Source: a virus. From it: a stretch of DNA of 35,984 bases. The stretch covers positions 1 through 35,984 of IMG/VR virus record IMGVR_UViG_3300034063_000370. One strand, given 5' to 3'. Positions 13,605 through 22,252 of the stretch are shown piece by piece. A program made the translations under genes and the position numbers. Below the pieces are notes generated by a model, which was not told the DNA's origin, did not search any database, and was given only the letters and a program-made list of their open reading frames with translations. Position 1 is the stretch's first letter; each line of letters opens with the position of its first letter.

Positions 13605-13639
13605 CAAATGTTACAAAAGAAATTGTATAAATTATTATA

Positions 13640-13700
13640 ACGTTCATTCGCTATTTGCAAATAGCGAACGGAAGTAAGACGACTCGGAACGGAACGTTCA
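13640..13700 (+). promoter_or_regulatory. Candidate glutamine-II riboswitch (Downstream-peptide RNA motif)
   Basis: Between nrdB and a 50-codon ORF is a compact RNA. The 5' strand ACGTTC (13640-13645) can pair with GAACGT (13692-13697) as P1. A perfect 22-base inverted repeat (13647-13668, TTCGCTATTTG/CAAATAGCGAA) forms P2, followed at once by CGGAAGTAAG (13669-13678), then GACTCGGAACGGAACG. This matches the conserved parts of the glnA/Downstream-peptide RNA family (GUUCA, hairpin, ACGGAAGUAGG-like box, GGAACG), which binds L-glutamine and is known from marine cyanobacteria and their phages. P1 closes four to seven bases before the ATG at 13704 and would mask the only purine-rich ribosome-site-like stretch, which suggests control of translation. 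Confidence 0.8.
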
Positions 13701-13703
13701 TCT

Positions 13704-13856
13704 ATGGAAGCACTCATTCTAACGTGCCTACAAGCACAGTTAATGATTGGGAGAGTTCATAAGGTTGTTATCCCAAAACAAGCCAAGAATGATTTGATTT
13801 GGGAAATCAAACAAATTACTCCAAAAGAGTGTAAAATAGACGCAAAAGCCGACTGA
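13704..13856 (+). CDS. Riboswitch-controlled downstream peptide (50 aa)
   Basis: ATG 13704 to TGA 13854-13856, 50 residues: MEALILTCLQAQLMIGRV, then HKVVIPKQAKNDLIWEIKQ, ending TPKECKIDAKAD. It lies immediately after the candidate glutamine riboswitch, exactly where that RNA class carries short ORFs. From memory, similar peptides occur in other cyanophages. It has two cysteines and an amphipathic helix and no export signal. The role is unknown; its link to glutamine suggests it adjusts host nitrogen or pigment metabolism, which is inference. Confidence 0.85.
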   Translation: MEALILTCLQAQLMIGRVHKVVIPKQAKNDLIWEIKQITPKECKIDAKAD

Positions 13857-13896
13857 AGGAACGCCACCTAACTCACTAAGTAAAGGAGCAAACCTA

Positions 13897-14028
13897 ATGA
13901 CAACAGCAACCTATCGTGGCGTTAAGTATAACGTCGAAGATCGTAAGATCAATGTACTTCAACTCATTAAAGAACAGATTGAAAAGGAGCAACGCCGTAA
14001 AGATGCACAAATAGCAGCAATTAAATGA
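13897..14028 (+). CDS. Very small YRGVKY protein (DUF4278-like, 43 aa)
   Basis: ATG 13897 with AAAGGAG at 13882-13888 as ribosome site; 43 residues ending at TGA 14026-14028. The opening MTTATYRGVKYNVEDRK has the YRGVxY signature of the DUF4278 family, found as short proteins in cyanobacteria and their phages; the rest is a charged helix (LQLIKEQIEKEQRRKDAQI). Function is unknown. It is 40 bases after the riboswitch peptide and probably shares its transcript, so it may also respond to glutamine through readthrough or coupling. Confidence 0.8.
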   Translation: MTTATYRGVKYNVEDRKINVLQLIKEQIEKEQRRKDAQIAAIK

Positions 14029-14082: not shown

Positions 14083-14111
14083 AAGAGGGTCTTGACAGAC
14101 CCTCTTTTTTT
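14083..14111 (+). terminator. Strong intrinsic terminator
   Basis: 10-bp stem AAGAGGGTCT (14083-14092) / AGACCCTCTT (14097-14106), TGAC loop, long T-tract to 14111. Its loop is also part of the -35 hexamer of the following promoter. Confidence 0.93.
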
Positions 14112-14120
14112 GTGTATAAT
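14092..14120 (+). promoter_or_regulatory. Consensus sigma-70 promoter nested in a terminator
   Basis: TTGACA (14092-14097), 17-base spacer, TATAAT (14115-14120): a full match to both hexamers at optimal spacing. The -35 box lies across the loop of the terminator at 14083-14111. It would drive the nuclease gene at 14166 using host RNA polymerase, so expression is expected early. Confidence 0.88.
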
Positions 14121-15737: not shown

Positions 15738-15753
15738 AAGAAGGTCACCAAAT

Positions 15754-15827
<74 letters not shown>

Positions 15828-15829
15828 TT

Positions 15830-15872
15830 GGGGAAGTGATCCTGCGGTTCCGTCCAAGAGCTCTCCTTCCCC
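15830..15872 (+). other. Stem-closed spacer element between two tRNAs
   Basis: A 43-base segment closed by a perfect 7-bp stem GGGGAAG (15830-15836) / CTTCCCC (15866-15872), with AGAGCTCT and CGGTTCCG palindromes inside. Too short for a tRNA, and there is no T-tract for a terminator. It may be a processing signal or tRNA remnant. Confidence 0.4.
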
Positions 15873-15892
15873 TCATACATAAAATAAAATAT

Positions 15893-15964
15893 TGGGGTGT
15901 AGCACAACGGCAGTGCGTCGAGCTGTTAACTCGCAGGTTACTGGTTCGAATCCAGTCACCCCAG
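15893..15964 (+). tRNA. tRNA-Asn(GUU)
   Basis: Acceptor TGGGGTG / CACCCCA (15957-15963), D-arm AGCACAACGGCAGTGC, anticodon GTT at 15925-15927 in loop CTGTTAA, T-arm GGTTCGAATCC. One mismatch at the outer pair of the anticodon stem. No encoded CCA. Confidence 0.95.
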
Positions 15965-15965
15965 T

Positions 15966-15988
15966 TGAAAGAATTAGTAATTCTTTCA
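15966..15988 (+). terminator. Inverted repeat after tRNA-Asn
   Basis: 10-bp perfect stem TGAAAGAATT (15966-15975) / AATTCTTTCA (15979-15988), three-base loop. Only a weak T-rich stretch follows (CGTCTTTAATTTT), so it is either a weak terminator or a 3'-processing hairpin. Confidence 0.5.
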
Positions 15989-16019
15989 CGTCTTTAATTT
16001 TGAATTTGATGTTCTTTTT

Positions 16020-16625
16020 ATGAATAAAGAAAACATACTTGGATTTCCAATTTATAGGTTTTATTATCCTAAAGAAAAACAAAATCAAATTAAAGATGAA
16101 ATTCTAAAACTAAATTGGATTGAAAATCCACAAAACATGATGTGGATTGGGTGTAACACTGGAGAAAATCTTCATGACCTTCCCCAATTTAAGGATCTTT
16201 TTGACTGGTTTCATGAATGTTTAAATGATGTTAAGCATGATTTGAATTTGACATGTGATGATTTAAAGGTCGTTAGTTCTTGGGCAAATTTAAATCGAAA
16301 AGAACAATCTTTTCATAATCACATTCATCCAAATGCTTTCATGAGTTCAAATTATTATGTCTCTGGTGGGAAAGAAACTCACACAGTATGGCACATGGAA
16401 AACCCCTACTTTCAAAACAATTTGTATCCAACGGAATCAGATACTCGTTTGTATCATTATGAACCAACAGAACCAGGAAAGTTTATTGTTTTCCCACCGC
16501 ACATTTATCACTATTCAACACAAAACAAATCGGATGAATATAGAATCACTATAGCAGCAAATATTTTTCCATCTGGAAAAGTTAGTTATGGTGGCGTATC
16601 TAAAATGAAAATTAGTGTCATCTAA
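16020..16625 (+). CDS. 2OG-Fe(II) oxygenase-like protein (second copy type)
   Basis: 201 residues. The central part has FHNHIHPNAFMSSNYYVSGG, where the HxH/P pattern followed by S-x-YY matches the putative 2OG-Fe(II) oxygenase family found widely in cyanophages. Towards the C-terminus PGKFIVFPPHIYHYSTQN carries the distal His and DEYRITIAANIF the Arg that would hold 2OG. The first metal-ligand position is less standard than in the 185-742 enzyme. It is not closely similar to that protein. The substrate is unknown. It sits alone between tRNA-Asn and tRNA-Val, with no clear late box; readthrough from the tRNA promoter is possible. Confidence 0.8.
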   Translation: MNKENILGFPIYRFYYPKEKQNQIKDEILKLNWIENPQNMMWIGCNTGENLHDLPQFKDLFDWFHECLNDVKHDLNLTCDDLKVVSSWANLNRKEQSFHNHIHPNAFMSSNYYVSGGKETHTVWHMENPYFQNNLYPTESDTRLYHYEPTEPGKFIVFPPHIYHYSTQNKSDEYRITIAANIFPSGKVSYGGVSKMKISVI

Positions 16626-16636
16626 AACAAACTTTA

Positions 16637-16708
16637 GGGCGATTAACTCAGCGGTAGAGTGCCTCGTTTACACCGAGTATGTCGGCGGTTCGATCCCGTC
16701 ATCGCCCA
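16637..16708 (+). tRNA. tRNA-Val(UAC)
   Basis: Acceptor GGGCGAT / ATCGCCC (16701-16707), D-arm AACTCAGCGGTAGAGT, anticodon stem CCTCG/CGAGT with TAC at 16669-16671, T-arm CGGTTCGATCC, A73. No encoded CCA. Starts 11 bases after the preceding stop codon. Confidence 0.95.
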
Positions 16709-16712
16709 CTTG

Positions 16713-16720
16713 CATAAATA
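16713..16720 (+). promoter_or_regulatory. Late promoter box CATAAATA
   Basis: Just after tRNA-Val and 23 bases before the Dps-like start at 16736; would leave a very short leader of about ten bases. Confidence 0.55.
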
Positions 16721-16735
16721 CTTGAAAAAAATATA

Positions 16736-17173
16736 ATGGAAGAACTTTACAATTCTCTTTATACTGCTCAGGCAAGTCTTTTTCAACTGTTCCAAAAAAC
16801 TTGGGTGTATCATTGGAATGTAATTGGTGCTGATTTTCATCAATTACACACCGTATTTGGTGAACAATATACAACCATGTTTGAGGAAATTGATAGGTTA
16901 ACTGAGCACATGCGTTATCTTCGTATGAAAGCTCCTGCACAATTGACTAGGGTGATGGACTTATCTGAAATTGCAGAGGCAGATCCAACCCCAACTGACA
17001 AGGTTATGATTGGTCAATTGATGAATGATAATAAAAAAATCATTGAGATTTTTGCTAAAGTTTCTGAAGAAGCAGAAAAGCAAAAGTCATACGCAACCGC
17101 AAACATTGTTCAGGATTTGATGGAGTCTCATGGTAAATTTGTTTGGATGTTAAGATCGTTTTTAAAGGAATGA
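16736..17173 (+). CDS. Dps-like ferritin-family protein
   Basis: 145 residues, a length near the Dps norm without the DNA-binding N-terminal tail. The inter-subunit ferroxidase signature is intact: His26 (KTWVYHWNV), His38 (DFHQLHTVFGEQY), Asp53 and Glu57 (EIDRLTEHMR), equivalent to the iron ligands of Dps. Dps forms 12-mers that oxidise ferrous iron with peroxide and store it, limiting Fenton damage. A phage copy may protect DNA in a photosynthetic, peroxide-producing cell, or sequester iron; both are inference. It is transcribed from a late box, so it may act late or be packaged. A six-base gap structure with an AAGGAATGACC ribosome site links it to the next gene. Confidence 0.88.
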   Translation: MEELYNSLYTAQASLFQLFQKTWVYHWNVIGADFHQLHTVFGEQYTTMFEEIDRLTEHMRYLRMKAPAQLTRVMDLSEIAEADPTPTDKVMIGQLMNDNKKIIEIFAKVSEEAEKQKSYATANIVQDLMESHGKFVWMLRSFLKE

Positions 17174-17176
17174 CCA

Positions 17177-17428
17177 ATGTTAACTATAAGATGCAAAGAT
17201 TGCAATAAAGAATTAGTTGCACACGAATCAAAAACACAATGTTGTGGTTGTCCTAACATGGCAACAATTAAAGGAGATAAGATTTCTGCAGTTGACTTAT
17301 CCCGTGTTGTCATGTTAAACTCCTATCATAATAAATCAAAATCTGGTGTTCTTACAACTGAAGATCTTGCTTTTCAAGAAGCGAGAAGACAACGTAAAGT
17401 AAGACGTTTAGATTTTGAAGTCCGTTGA
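17177..17428 (+). CDS. Small Cys-rich (zinc-ribbon-like) protein
   Basis: 83 residues. The N-terminus has CKDCNKEL followed by CCGCPNMATIKGD, four or five cysteines that could bind one zinc; the C-terminus is strongly basic (EARRQRKVRRLDFEVR). The combination suggests a small nucleic-acid or protein-binding adaptor. The start has AAAGGAATGACC upstream and lies four bases after the Dps-like stop, so the two genes are probably coupled. I know similar short proteins only as conserved hypotheticals in cyanophages. Confidence 0.8.
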   Translation: MLTIRCKDCNKELVAHESKTQCCGCPNMATIKGDKISAVDLSRVVMLNSYHNKSKSGVLTTEDLAFQEARRQRKVRRLDFEVR

Positions 17429-17439
17429 GGACTTTTATT
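17418..17439 (+). terminator. Weak terminator spanning the stop codon before tRNA-Ser
   Basis: AAGTCC (17418-17423) / GGACTT (17429-17434) around GTTGA, then TTATT. It contains the stop codon of the preceding gene and ends on the base before tRNA-Ser. Confidence 0.55.
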
Positions 17440-17525
17440 GGAAGATTGGCCGAGTGGTTGATGGCGATAGTCTTGAAAACTATTAACGTTAGTAGCGTTC
17501 CAGGGTTCGAATCCCTGATCTTCCT
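17440..17525 (+). tRNA. tRNA-Ser(UGA)
   Basis: Class II tRNA with long variable arm. Acceptor GGAAGAT / ATCTTCC (17518-17524), anticodon stem ATAGT/ACTAT, anticodon TGA at 17474-17476, T-arm AGGGTTCGAATCCCT. The discriminator base would be T73, whereas bacterial tRNA-Ser normally has G73. No encoded CCA. Confidence 0.93.
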
Positions 17526-17577
17526 TCAGTTACCATTGATACCAAATTTAAAGTAATGTCTTGACATTCTTACAAAA

Positions 17578-17605
17578 TTGACAAACTTAGATGTGATGTT
17601 ATCAT
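17578..17605 (+). promoter_or_regulatory. Sigma-70-like promoter with dyad around the -10
   Basis: TTGACA (17578-17583), 16-base spacer, TATCAT (17600-17605). A 10-bp inverted repeat TAGATGTGAT (17588-17597) / ATCACATCTA (17616-17625) brackets the -10, as an operator might. Another TTGACA occurs at 17561-17566. Confidence 0.6.
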
Positions 17606-17625
17606 AAATGTTAGTATCACATCTA
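17588..17625. repeat. 10-bp inverted repeat, possible operator or 5' hairpin
   Basis: TAGATGTGAT (17588-17597) and ATCACATCTA (17616-17625) are perfect inverse complements separated by 18 bases containing the -10 box. The right arm ends eight bases before the ATG at 17633. Confidence 0.7.
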
Positions 17626-17632
17626 TACAATT

Positions 17633-17782
17633 ATGGACCAACATACTTATAATAATTGGGTCCGTATTAAAGAGACTTTTGAAATCTCTGGAAATACCGA
17701 TAACATGTTCTATAAAAGATCATGTGAAATCGTAAAAACAAAAAAAGATCCTCTAGCAAAGTATCTTGGTGATGAGAAATGA
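17633..17782 (+). CDS. Very small hypothetical protein (49 aa)
   Basis: ATG 17633 to TGA 17780-17782; 49 residues (MDQHTYNNWVRIKETFEISG, then a lysine-rich helix and PLAKYLGDEK). No recognisable family. The case for a real gene is its promoter with operator-like dyad just upstream, absence of other coding potential, and an ATGA overlap with the next small gene. No clear ribosome site is visible, as the leader would be very short. Confidence 0.65.
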   Translation: MDQHTYNNWVRIKETFEISGNTDNMFYKRSCEIVKTKKDPLAKYLGDEK

Positions 17783-17937
17783 CTCCAGAAGAAATTCAAG
17801 AAATGATCAATCAATCAATTGCTGAAGCAATTGACAAACACAATAAAACTGCTACAATTATAAGTGCCAGTATTGGTTCAATCCTTCTTTTCTTTTATGC
17901 TCATGGTCTTCTTGCAGTGGTTGACAAGGTTAAGTAG
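17779..17937 (+). CDS. Small single-span membrane protein (52 aa)
   Basis: ATG 17779 overlaps the previous stop. The 52-residue product has an acidic helical start (MTPEEIQEMINQSIAEAIDK), then one membrane segment (TIISASIGSILLFFYAHGLLAVV) and a short basic end. I recall similar short membrane proteins in cyanophages. The function is unknown; tiny single-span proteins often modulate host membrane complexes. Its last codons overlap the -35 box of the promoter for the following tRNAs. Confidence 0.75.
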   Translation: MTPEEIQEMINQSIAEAIDKHNKTATIISASIGSILLFFYAHGLLAVVDKVK

Positions 17938-17949
17938 GAGTGGTATAAT
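17921..17949 (+). promoter_or_regulatory. Consensus sigma-70 promoter for the four-tRNA group
   Basis: TTGACA (17921-17926), 17-base spacer, TATAAT (17944-17949), both hexamers perfect. Expected start near 17956, four bases before tRNA-Pro. The -35 lies inside the preceding small gene. Confidence 0.9.
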
Positions 17950-17959
17950 ACTTCAATGA

Positions 17960-18031
17960 CGGAGCATAGTTCAGCGGTAGAATGCTGGTTTTGGGAACCA
18001 GAGGTCGCAGGTTCAATCCCTGCTGCTCCGA
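17960..18031 (+). tRNA. tRNA-Pro(UGG)
   Basis: Acceptor CGGAGCA / TGCTCCG (18024-18030), D-arm AGTTCAGCGGTAGAAT, anticodon stem CTGGT/ACCAG with TGG at 17992-17994, T-arm AGGTTCAATCCCT, A73. C1-G72 is typical of bacterial tRNA-Pro. Confidence 0.95.
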
Positions 18032-18035
18032 CCTT

Positions 18036-18108
18036 GGGGAATTAGCTCAGTTGGTAGAGCACCTGCTTTGCAAGCAGGCTGTCAGGAGTTCGAGTCTCCT
18101 ATTCTCCA
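18036..18108 (+). tRNA. tRNA-Ala(UGC)
   Basis: Acceptor GGGGAAT / ATTCTCC (18101-18107) including one G-U pair at the third position, the hallmark of tRNA-Ala. D-arm AGCTCAGTTGGTAGAGC, anticodon TGC at 18069-18071, T-arm GGAGTTCGAGTCTCC, A73. Four bases after tRNA-Pro. Confidence 0.96.
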
Positions 18109-18111
18109 TAT

Positions 18112-18183
18112 GGGACTGTCGCCTATTGGTTAAGGCCCACTGCTTATAACGGTGTGAACGGAGTTCAATTCTCTGCGGTCCTA
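18112..18183 (+). tRNA. tRNA-Ile(UAU)
   Basis: Acceptor GGGACTG / CGGTCCT (18176-18182) with a G1-U72 wobble, D-stem GCC/GGC, anticodon stem CACTG/CGGTG, anticodon TAT at 18145-18147, T-arm CGGAGTTCAATTCTCTG, A73. A UAU anticodon reads AUA directly, whereas most bacteria use a lysidine-modified CAU tRNA. Confidence 0.88.
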
Positions 18184-18268
18184 TTGGGTGCAACAAGGAA
18201 CGTTGTATTAAACGAAGGGTCCCCTCTGCTGAATCGTAGATTATCGTGGTCAGACACCCTCGCCCAAA
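18184..18268 (+). ncRNA. tRNA-sized structured element inside the tRNA cluster
   Basis: Starts on the base after tRNA-Ile. TTGGGTG (18184-18190) can pair with CGCCCAA (18261-18267) as a 7-bp acceptor-like stem closing an 84-base element, followed by A. Inside are CAAC/GTTG (18191-18204) with a seven-base loop and CGAAGGGT/ACCCTCG (18213-18262). No canonical T-loop or clear anticodon arm is found, so it is not called as a tRNA. It could be a degenerate class II tRNA or an independent small RNA co-transcribed with the tRNAs. Confidence 0.4.
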
Positions 18269-18270
18269 AT

Positions 18271-18343
18271 GCTCCTTTAGCTCTCTGGAGAAAGCACCGA
18301 ACTCATAATTCGGCTAAGGTCGGTTCGATCCCGACAAGGAGCA
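18271..18343 (+). tRNA. tRNA-Met(CAU)
   Basis: Acceptor GCTCCTT / AAGGAGC (18336-18342), anticodon stem CCGAA/TTCGG, anticodon CAT at 18304-18306, T-arm CGGTTCGATCCCG, A73. It lacks the three G-C pairs of an initiator, so it is an elongator. A CAU tRNA could also be the lysidine-modified Ile type, but a UAU tRNA-Ile is already next door. Confidence 0.9.
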
Positions 18344-18344
18344 C

Positions 18345-18842: not shown

Positions 18843-19040
18843 TCTCGGGATGACTTAAAAAGCGCCCTGGTCGGGATAGTACCCCCTTTAGTCACGGAGA
18901 GACTTTAAAAGTACTGGTGGAGTCAATATGACCCCTTATGAGTTTACGGCATCTCTCAAATGACGTTGGTGCGGATGGAGGCAACTCCCGCCCAGTTTCT
19001 TGCCTCTGGTCAAAGGGCAAGTGGCGAGCCTGAAAGACCT
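18841..19040 (+). ncRNA. Large structured RNA upstream of the sugar cluster (wcaG/manA-like candidate)
   Basis: About 200 bases without a credible ORF but with many pairings. AGTCTC (18841-18846)/GAGACT (18899-18904) closes a domain containing TGACT/AGTCA. GGAGTCA/TGACCCC forms a small hairpin near 18919-18935. A bulged stem at 18966-18997 is capped by GCAA (GGAG-GCAA-CTCC). CTTGCC (18999-19004)/GGCAAG (19016-19021) is a hairpin whose loop GGTC (19008-19011) can pair with GACC (19036-19039) as a pseudoknot. It leads into a terminator and a promoter ahead of nucleotide-sugar genes. The wcaG and manA RNA motifs of cyanophages occur in such contexts, but I cannot confirm membership by eye. Confidence 0.6.
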
Positions 19041-19099: not shown

Positions 19100-20041
19100 A
19101 TGATACTAGTCACTGGTGGTGCAGGATTTATTGGAAGCAATTTCCTACACTTCATTAAGGATAAGACAGATGAAAAAATTATCGTGATTGATAATCTGAC
19201 TTATGCTGCTGAATTAGATTACATCCCCAATGAATCTAAGTTTGAGTTTGTTTGGTGTGACATTACAAATGAAAATCATGTAGATTATTTGTTTAAAAAG
19301 TATAAACCAAATAAAGTATTTCACTTTGCAGCAGAAAGTCACGTAGATAATTCTATTAAAAATTATAGACCATTCTTAGAATCTAATGTAGTTGGAACTA
19401 TTAATCTTTTAAATTCTAGTTTGGCAATTGATGTTGAAAAATTTCATCACATTTCTACTGATGAAGTTTATGGATCATTGGAGTACGATGATGAGAATGT
19501 CTTTACAGAAAATACTCCTTACGATCCAAAAAATCCTTATTCTGCGAGCAAAGCAGCATCGGATCATTATGTGAGGACATGGCATAATACCTATGGTCTT
19601 CCTTATCTGATTACAAATTGTTCAAATAACTATGGTCCACATCAACACATTGAAAAACTTATTCCCAAAGTAGTCATAAATTCTTTGAATGATAAAGTCA
19701 CTTACATGTATGGTGGTGGGGAACAAATTCGTGATTGGTTGCATGTGATGGATCATGCCAATGCTATTTGGATGTTGGAAGAACAAAACGTATTGAATGA
19801 TCGTTTTAATGTTGGTGGTTCTTGTGAACTTAAAAACATTAATGTAACTAAAAAAATTCTTGACATTTTGGATAAACCATATAGTTTGATAGAAACATCT
19901 GATGAACGTCCTGGACAGGATAAAAGATATGGAATGGATCATTCAAAACTAACAAATAAAATTGGATGGGTTCCTGAAGTAAAATTTGACAAAGGATTGG
20001 AAGATACTGTAAAATGGTATGTGAATAGAATCAAGTTATGA
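19100..20041 (+). CDS. rmlB: dTDP-glucose 4,6-dehydratase-like enzyme (RmlB/RfbB)
   Basis: 313 residues, extended SDR fold. The N-terminal NAD motif is ILVTGGAGFIGSNF; HFAAESHVDNSI, the HISTDEVYG segment with the Thr-Asp-Glu catalytic triad typical of 4,6-dehydratases, PYSASKAASDHYV (YxxxK) and TNCSNNYGPHQHIEKLIPK follow in the RmlB order. The enzyme converts an NDP-glucose to the 4-keto-6-deoxy sugar, the entry to deoxy- and dideoxyhexoses. Nucleotide specificity (dTDP or CDP) cannot be settled, but the sequence motifs look RmlB-like. First gene of a coupled three-gene block that follows the structured RNA. Confidence 0.9.
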   Translation: MILVTGGAGFIGSNFLHFIKDKTDEKIIVIDNLTYAAELDYIPNESKFEFVWCDITNENHVDYLFKKYKPNKVFHFAAESHVDNSIKNYRPFLESNVVGTINLLNSSLAIDVEKFHHISTDEVYGSLEYDDENVFTENTPYDPKNPYSASKAASDHYVRTWHNTYGLPYLITNCSNNYGPHQHIEKLIPKVVINSLNDKVTYMYGGGEQIRDWLHVMDHANAIWMLEEQNVLNDRFNVGGSCELKNINVTKKILDILDKPYSLIETSDERPGQDKRYGMDHSKLTNKIGWVPEVKFDKGLEDTVKWYVNRIKL

Positions 20042-22180: not shown

Positions 22181-22252
22181 GCGGACATAGTTCAGTGGTA
22201 GAACGCTATCCTTCCAAGTTAGATGTCGTCGGTTCGAATCCGATTGTCCGCT
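22181..22252 (+). tRNA. tRNA-Gly(UCC)
   Basis: Acceptor GCGGACA / TGTCCGC (22245-22251), D-arm AGTTCAGTGGTAGAAC, anticodon TCC at 22213-22215, T-arm CGGTTCGAATCCG, U73 as is normal for Gly. The anticodon stem CTATC/GTTAG contains one U-U mismatch. No encoded CCA. Isolated 3.8 kb from the other tRNAs, between the two sugar blocks. Confidence 0.93.

Follow-up and report, generated by a model that had tools for sequence, protein, structure and literature searches.

The stretch of viral DNA analyzed here (35,984 nucleotides, referred to as the window) is part of a T4-like cyanophage genome, with the large and small subunits of ribonucleotide reductase, a DnaB-like helicase and a DNA primase encoded nearby. 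Its closest annotated relatives were the freshwater Synechococcus phages DSL-LC02, DSL-LC03 and S-SRM01. Nine phage tRNA genes (Arg, Asn, Val, Ser, Pro, Ala, Ile-tat, Met and Gly) were found at 15753-18344 and 22181-22252, and a wcaG RNA (88.7 bits) at 18938-19035, shortly upstream of a nucleotide-sugar epimerase-like gene (19100-20041). The locus studied comprises an RNA element and two small genes, laid out as follows, each line ending with the evidence for the feature:

13610..13638, + strand: weak sigma-70-like promoter candidate, GTTACA-17-TATTAT (consensus scan only)
about 13626-13632, + strand: T4-late-like TATAAAT, a candidate promoter (sequence)
13641..13645, + strand: 5' strand of stem P1, CGUUC (RF01739 alignment)
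13647..13668, + strand: hairpin P2, a 22-base palindrome (RF01739 alignment, palindrome)
13669..13676, + strand: conserved Gln-I core CGGAAGUA (match to the RF01739 consensus)
13677..13684, + strand: 5' strand of P3, AGACGACU, proposed partner 13847-13854 (covariation over composites; nested Rfam alignment in S-H34)
13687..13699, + strand: hairpin P4, GAACG-GAA-CGUUC (sequence; in 36/36 ORF-less composites the nested fold has the lower energy)
13701..13705, + strand: 5' strand of P5, UCUAU, overlapping the start codon (covariation across the ORF)
13704..13856, + strand: 50-aa ORF in the P5 loop, a PHROG 504 relative, predicted helical hairpin with conserved Cys8 and Cys43 (pN/pS, alignment, AlphaFold2, PHROG)
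13836..13840, + strand: 3' strand of P5, AUAGA, within the ORF at the Ile45 and Asp46 codons (covariation)
13847..13854, + strand: 3' strand of P3, AGCCGACU, at the Lys48-Asp50 codons and the first stop base (near-invariant codons 46-50; covariation)
13855..13863, + strand: canonical GAAG linker and 3' strand of P1, GAACG (same sequence 3' of the inner hairpin in ORF-less composites)
13882..13888, + strand: Shine-Dalgarno AAAGGAG for the next gene (sequence)
13897..14028, + strand: 43-aa YRG / DUF4278-like protein (DUF4278 E 0.056; homologues to 29.0 bits; PHROG 545 and 5049)
14083..14106, + strand: intrinsic terminator ending the transcription unit (terminator scan of the window)

Given the position of this terminator, the RNA element together with its two small genes seems to form a self-contained unit. 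A perfect consensus promoter, TTGACA-17-TATAAT (12/12), was also detected at 14083-14120 with its -35 box in the terminator loop, and phage P-RSM6 carries a similar terminator after its YRG gene, again with TTGACA in the loop; promoters that overlap terminators in this way may be a device conserved among phages.

All the motifs named in the original prediction, which was made from the letters of the window, were found in place: ACGTTC (13640-13645), a perfect 22-base palindrome TTCGCTATTTGCAAATAGCGAA (13647-13668), CGGAAGTAAG (13669-13678), GGAACG (13686-13691 and again 13691-13696) and the ORF. The palindrome occurs once in the window and in none of 100 shuffles. The hairpin TTCGCTATTYGCRAATAGCGAA at this position is found again, as P2 or as the inner hairpin, in aptamers that otherwise differ, and a matching sequence adjoins tRNA-Ala in phages S-RIM8, S-RIM32 and S-RIM50. 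It is perhaps a mobile or gene-converted palindrome. The prediction had assigned these motifs to a Gln-II (Downstream-peptide) riboswitch, to be checked with covariance models. With cmscan on 161 bases, the Gln-II model RF01704 reached only 13.3 bits against a cut-off of 33, whereas the Gln-I (glnA) model RF01739 aligned at 13639-13695 with 34.5 bits (E 2.7e-6), 0.5 bit short of its gathering threshold of 35; when the whole window was scanned with RF01739 at that threshold the element went unreported. The difference between the two scores implies that the class, but not the presence of a glutamine-riboswitch RNA in a phage, had been misassigned: as judged from its sequence, the element is of the type I glutamine riboswitch class.

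The first element (13641-13691) is followed after 12 bases by the ORF; however, comparison of the sequence with its relatives showed that positions 13641-13863 constitute a single larger composite RNA with the ORF inside, and not an element and then an ORF. Immediately 5' of the ORF, CGTTCA (13695-13700) represents a second, Gln-I-like 5' half, and the 3' half GACGCAAAAGCCGACTGAAGGAACG (13839-13863), which is similar to the 3' part of the Gln-I aptamer, overlaps the last codons and the stop of the ORF; it is present in a single copy in the window and absent from shuffles. All three Gln-I consensus motifs are present in the composite, namely CGUUCA (13641-13646), CGGAAGUA (13669-13676) and GAAGGAACG (13855-13863), the last one supplied by the second half, while the core of the inner element, CGCAAAA, is off the consensus. 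The three-stem frame of Gln-I is also present, with P2 as a perfect palindrome, covariation between the halves of P3 and invariant P1 strands. The ORF begins with a start codon in the 5' strand of one stem and ends with a stop codon on the 3' border of another. The proposal that a short peptide gene is controlled by an RNA just upstream was thus correct as to a real short coding gene but not as to its merely downstream position, since the RNA encloses the ORF and runs to 13863.

Relatives were gathered by an IMG/VR pattern scan for the Gln-I consensus and from loci encoding the 50-aa peptide. Composites were delimited by regular expressions, and the counts given here are samples among the matches listed, not frequencies. 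The exact 27-base junction of the window had no match in IMG/VR, and degenerate patterns were required. Among the matches listed there were 177 distinct composites, every one from cyanophages, of which 136 carried an ORF in the loop of the inner hairpin P5 and 41 did not. In ORF-less relatives (e.g. L004, L008, L011 and L207 of phage S-PM2) a plain hairpin, TTCGCTATTCG..AATAGCGAA, lies between CGTTCA and CGCAAANGCCGACTGAAGGAACG, exactly at the site of the ORF and with flanks identical to those of ORF-bearing relatives; therefore, the ORF is the occupant of a hairpin loop. The first loop also holds an ORF in 44 composites among the matches listed, and the marine phages P-SSM4, P-HM1 and AG-345-L05, among others, have ORFs in both hairpins. 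The P-SSM4 layout reads CGTTCATCCTATG-[66 aa]-CATAGGACGCAAGTAAGCCGACTCGGAACG-GAA-CGTTCATCCTTATG-[57 aa]-TAAGGACGCAAAAGCCGACTGAAGGAACG, and a manA RNA (184 bits; L005 2014-2199) was found directly upstream of this double loop-ORF riboswitch. The marine junction version appeared in 45 annotated phage records among the matches listed, all of them cyanophages or marine viruses. A host origin of the composite was unsupported: among the matches listed, only two contigs from cellular genomes (L338 and L339) bear the junction, and both look phage, as L338 has ThyX-, PhoH- and gp32-like genes (named by eye from translations) and L339 has sequence in common with the phage contig L270.

A signal for the enclosing fold came from P5, the stem that spans the ORF. 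In counts in which the tree was not modelled, 343 of 378 positions paired over 63 distinct stem pairs, against 269±8 in shuffles (0/5000 with as many), and the stems of the first loop formed 81 of 85 pairs against 72±2. Among 32 representatives whose proteins are at most about 60% alike, taken to reduce relatedness and counted in the same way, 177 of 192 P5 pairs were retained (136±5.4 expected from shuffles, 0/10000), that is, 92% pairing in register, falling to 41-55% once the register was slid. Single P5 pairs include C-G, U-A, A-U and U-G types, and such varied pairs at stem positions 3-5 would be hard to explain by descent alone. For P3, a hand alignment gave 114 pairs against 105±1.9 in shuffles, as illustrated by the 3' parts AGUCG/CGACU in S-SZBM1, AAACGAC/GUUGUUU in L077 and AGACAAC/GUUGACU in L030; the commonest P3 in this alignment has two mismatches, C·A and A·C. 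The outermost pair at the inner end was U-A in 150, G-C in 13, U-G in two and U-C in one of the matches listed.

How the two elements pair with each other bears on the first of the alternatives. In this reading two Gln-I aptamers would stand in tandem, each with its own P1, and the P2 loop of the second would hold the ORF; they would act in series (pseudo-cooperatively), the ORF being controlled by the first and the DUF4278-like gene by the second. The strands of P4 would then act as P1 strands of the two aptamers. Tandems are common for glutamine riboswitches, with 157 doublets reported (PMC9481103), and we found true ones in five viral contigs (L029, L054, L104, L105 and L116), with two complete canonical aptamers joined by 6-9-base linkers and usually followed by other small proteins, e.g. 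MTKYQSMLFMRAVKKSLREKHLTSSVKNT. In addition, locus L045 combines two canonical aptamers, of which the second bears an ORF in its P2 loop, has a complete canonical core and closes this loop by an 8-bp stem, UUACUAUC/GAUAGUGA; this element scores 42.2 bits with RF01739, and a search with its peptide for further aptamers with a full canonical core and a loop ORF returned L045 alone among the matches listed. The first element of the window by itself also obtains its 34.5 bits from Rfam. Against two tandem aptamers, the GAAG linker is missing from element 1 of window-type composites and CGGAAGUA from element 2, so that the canonical 5' half belongs to the first element and the canonical 3' half (GAAGGAACG) to the second, the inner halves being abnormal; the linker is down to 3-5 bases; and the 3' parts of the two elements covary. 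In ViennaRNA the nested form was lower in energy than the tandem form in all 36 ORF-less composites (mean -25.0 vs -21.4 kcal/mol), although in the window with its ORF excised the gap was only 2 kcal/mol (-20.9 vs -18.8), and its P5, of just 5 bp, must close a loop of ~130 bases. In S-H34 the RF01739 model aligns in the nested form with 43.7 bits (cut-off 35), and in the record of S-CREM1 a single glnA riboswitch of 99 bases is annotated over both elements of an ORF-less composite. Covariation, folding energy and the Rfam alignment in S-H34 speak for a single nested aptamer rather than a tandem pair, and we regard the tandem reading as unlikely. As the strands of P1 and P4 never vary, they give no covariation signal, and because of this invariance tandem pairing, or switching between states, may still occur; a single switch may alternate between the nested and the tandem form.

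A similarly low probability is given to a conserved RNA that is no longer a glutamine sensor, having become a translational-coupling or attenuation device or a sensor of another ligand. This would agree with the CGCAAGUA and CGCAAAA cores of most copies, which are off the Gln-I consensus, CGCAAGUA being the core of the marine phages. On the other hand, the window and other freshwater phages retain CGGAAGUA and GAAGGAACG, and the downstream gene is of the type under glutamine riboswitch control in the hosts. Less probable still is a simple Gln-I riboswitch with an ordinary small gene after it, in which case the 3' similarity would be a functionless, decayed remnant of a duplicated aptamer. The start of the ORF 12 bases past the first element and the off-consensus core of element 2 fit this explanation, but it is strained by a closing stem that covaries over divergent ORFs, by codons 46-50 frozen at synonymous sites and by a fixed stop, which together imply that selection on the RNA goes on. 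A Gln-II riboswitch controlling the peptide, as first predicted, can practically be set aside: although CGTTCA, GGAACG and a short peptide 3' of the RNA are in common, the CGCAGUU core is absent and RF01704 falls some 20 bits below its cut-off. The best explanation, which we consider probable, is that 13641-13863 is one nested composite Gln-I-type riboswitch with a mutual-exclusion mechanism.

The protein encoded in the loop is under purifying selection, with a pN/pS of 0.37 over codons 2-43 in the 50-codon freshwater family. Codons 46-50 (GAC GCA AAA GCC GAC) hardly vary even in nucleotide sequence (pS 0.197 against 0.62), as expected from the overlap of RNA and protein at this place. Among the matches listed, all 136 loop ORF proteins contain exactly two cysteines, the first base of the stop codon occupies the same position in 128 of the 136, and the start codon lies 3-5 bases 3' of CGTTCA in 134. 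AlphaFold2 predicted a helical hairpin (H8-20 and H25-37; pLDDT 86.7), while a PDB search with the 50-aa peptide found no homologue or solved relative. The similarity of the window protein to PHROG 504 is weak (E 0.028), whereas its positional homologue from P-SSM4 matches this family with 5.6e-16; the two proteins align with Cys8 and Cys43 invariant, and these residues may form a disulfide. In many marine members the N-terminus is hydrophobic and suggestive of an export signal. Attenuation through a glutamine-rich leader peptide was rejected, as the marine peptides are not Q-rich.

The original prediction had also suggested that the gene at 13897 may share a regulon with the peptide, and this was borne out in that both belong to the same unit. 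A small DUF4278-like protein that begins with a YRG motif follows 162 of 170 composites among the matches listed. The window protein itself falls below the cut-off for DUF4278 (PF14105; 14.3 bits, E 0.056, cut-off 25.3), while the P-SSM2 orthologue is the best match with 29.0 bits; the window ORF, a truncated or fused version, retains just the N-terminal YRG portion. This portion continues into a helical segment, LNVLQLIKEQIEKEQRRKDAQ, which in relatives such as L011 and L026 constitutes a separate downstream ORF. In many relatives a hairpin, CUCUUUAA..UUAAGGAG, right after P1 masks the ribosome-binding site; it is weak in the window. Cyanobacterial glutamine riboswitches are mostly associated with DUF4278 genes, and glutamine activates expression (PMC6316151); by analogy, the 13897 gene is probably the main gene regulated by the composite RNA.

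For the nested composite we propose the following mechanism. As the comparison of relatives shows, the outer frame (CGUUCA, P2 and CGGAAGUA on the 5' side, GAAGGAACG on the 3' side) is that of a canonical Gln-I aptamer, with a P3 arm enlarged by the small hairpin P4 and the extra stem P5, whose loop contains the entire 50-codon gene. This aptamer would bind glutamine. In the folded aptamer the start region of the ORF would be locked in P4 and P5, and when the ORF is translated the elongating and terminating ribosomes would strip P5, P3 and P1; thus, the sensor could not fold while the inner peptide is being made, and vice versa. The balance between the two would set translation of the DUF4278-like gene, whose ribosome-binding site lies just 3' of P1, and glutamine would turn this gene ON if it acts as in the host riboswitches. 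The phage unit would then read the nitrogen status of the host and deliver a small protein resembling regulators of PII or GS together with the two-cysteine helical-hairpin protein. More tentatively, at somewhat less than an even chance, this could be a device common among phages, whereby protein genes travel as interchangeable passengers in the loops of metabolite-sensing RNAs, and ribosomes on the passenger compete with the ligand. If so, one transcript would integrate glutamine level and translation status into two outputs, namely the two-cysteine protein from the loop and the DUF4278-like protein encoded after the RNA, and phage small proteins without assigned function (T4-GC 429 and 430; PHROG 504 and 6471) would be tied to host nitrogen status in infection.

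Compared with the known Gln-I riboswitch (glnA RNA, RF01739; gifB of Synechocystis), the composite shares the P1/P2/P3 three-way junction, CGUUCA, CGGAAGUA, GAAGGAACG and a position before DUF4278-type genes; it differs in that P3 has two extra stems and a whole protein gene in its loop, in its restriction to cyanophages among the matches listed and in the altered core of most marine copies, and the sensor and the gene use the same nucleotides under both constraints. With Gln-II (RF01704) it shares CGUUCA/GGAACG and short downstream peptides, and the model does not match. Tandem pseudo-cooperative glutamine riboswitches (PMC9481103, PMC2864571) likewise have aptamer-like copies in series, whereas here the halves look fused and nested. 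The tandem-riboswitch review considered only tandems with no intervening ORF (PMC9481103), and for this reason ORF-bearing forms could not appear in it; as riboswitch surveys discard arrays with genes between, gene-hosting aptamer loops would be systematically missed. Glutamine riboswitches of Gln-I class were already known in phages S-CREM1 (PMC9964418) and Melnitz (PMC9004378), and the available portions of these reports and of the 2010 survey describe glutamine RNAs in tandem or in phages and no loop ORFs. Neither did the literature searched yield a description of protein genes in glutamine riboswitch loops. Since both marine and freshwater T4-like cyanophages show this arrangement repeatedly, the long-studied P-SSM2, P-SSM4 and P-HM1 among them, it can be tested directly. 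The nearest precedent, and the only one found, is the uORF uMetE2 within an aptamer extension of the M. tuberculosis metE B12 riboswitch, for which exclusion between translation and ligand-dependent folding has likewise been proposed (PMC11260477). While uMetE2 is very short, of limited conservation and confined to one bacterial lineage, the composite encloses conserved proteins of 49-67 aa, sometimes two of them, within covarying loop stems and across many phage lineages.
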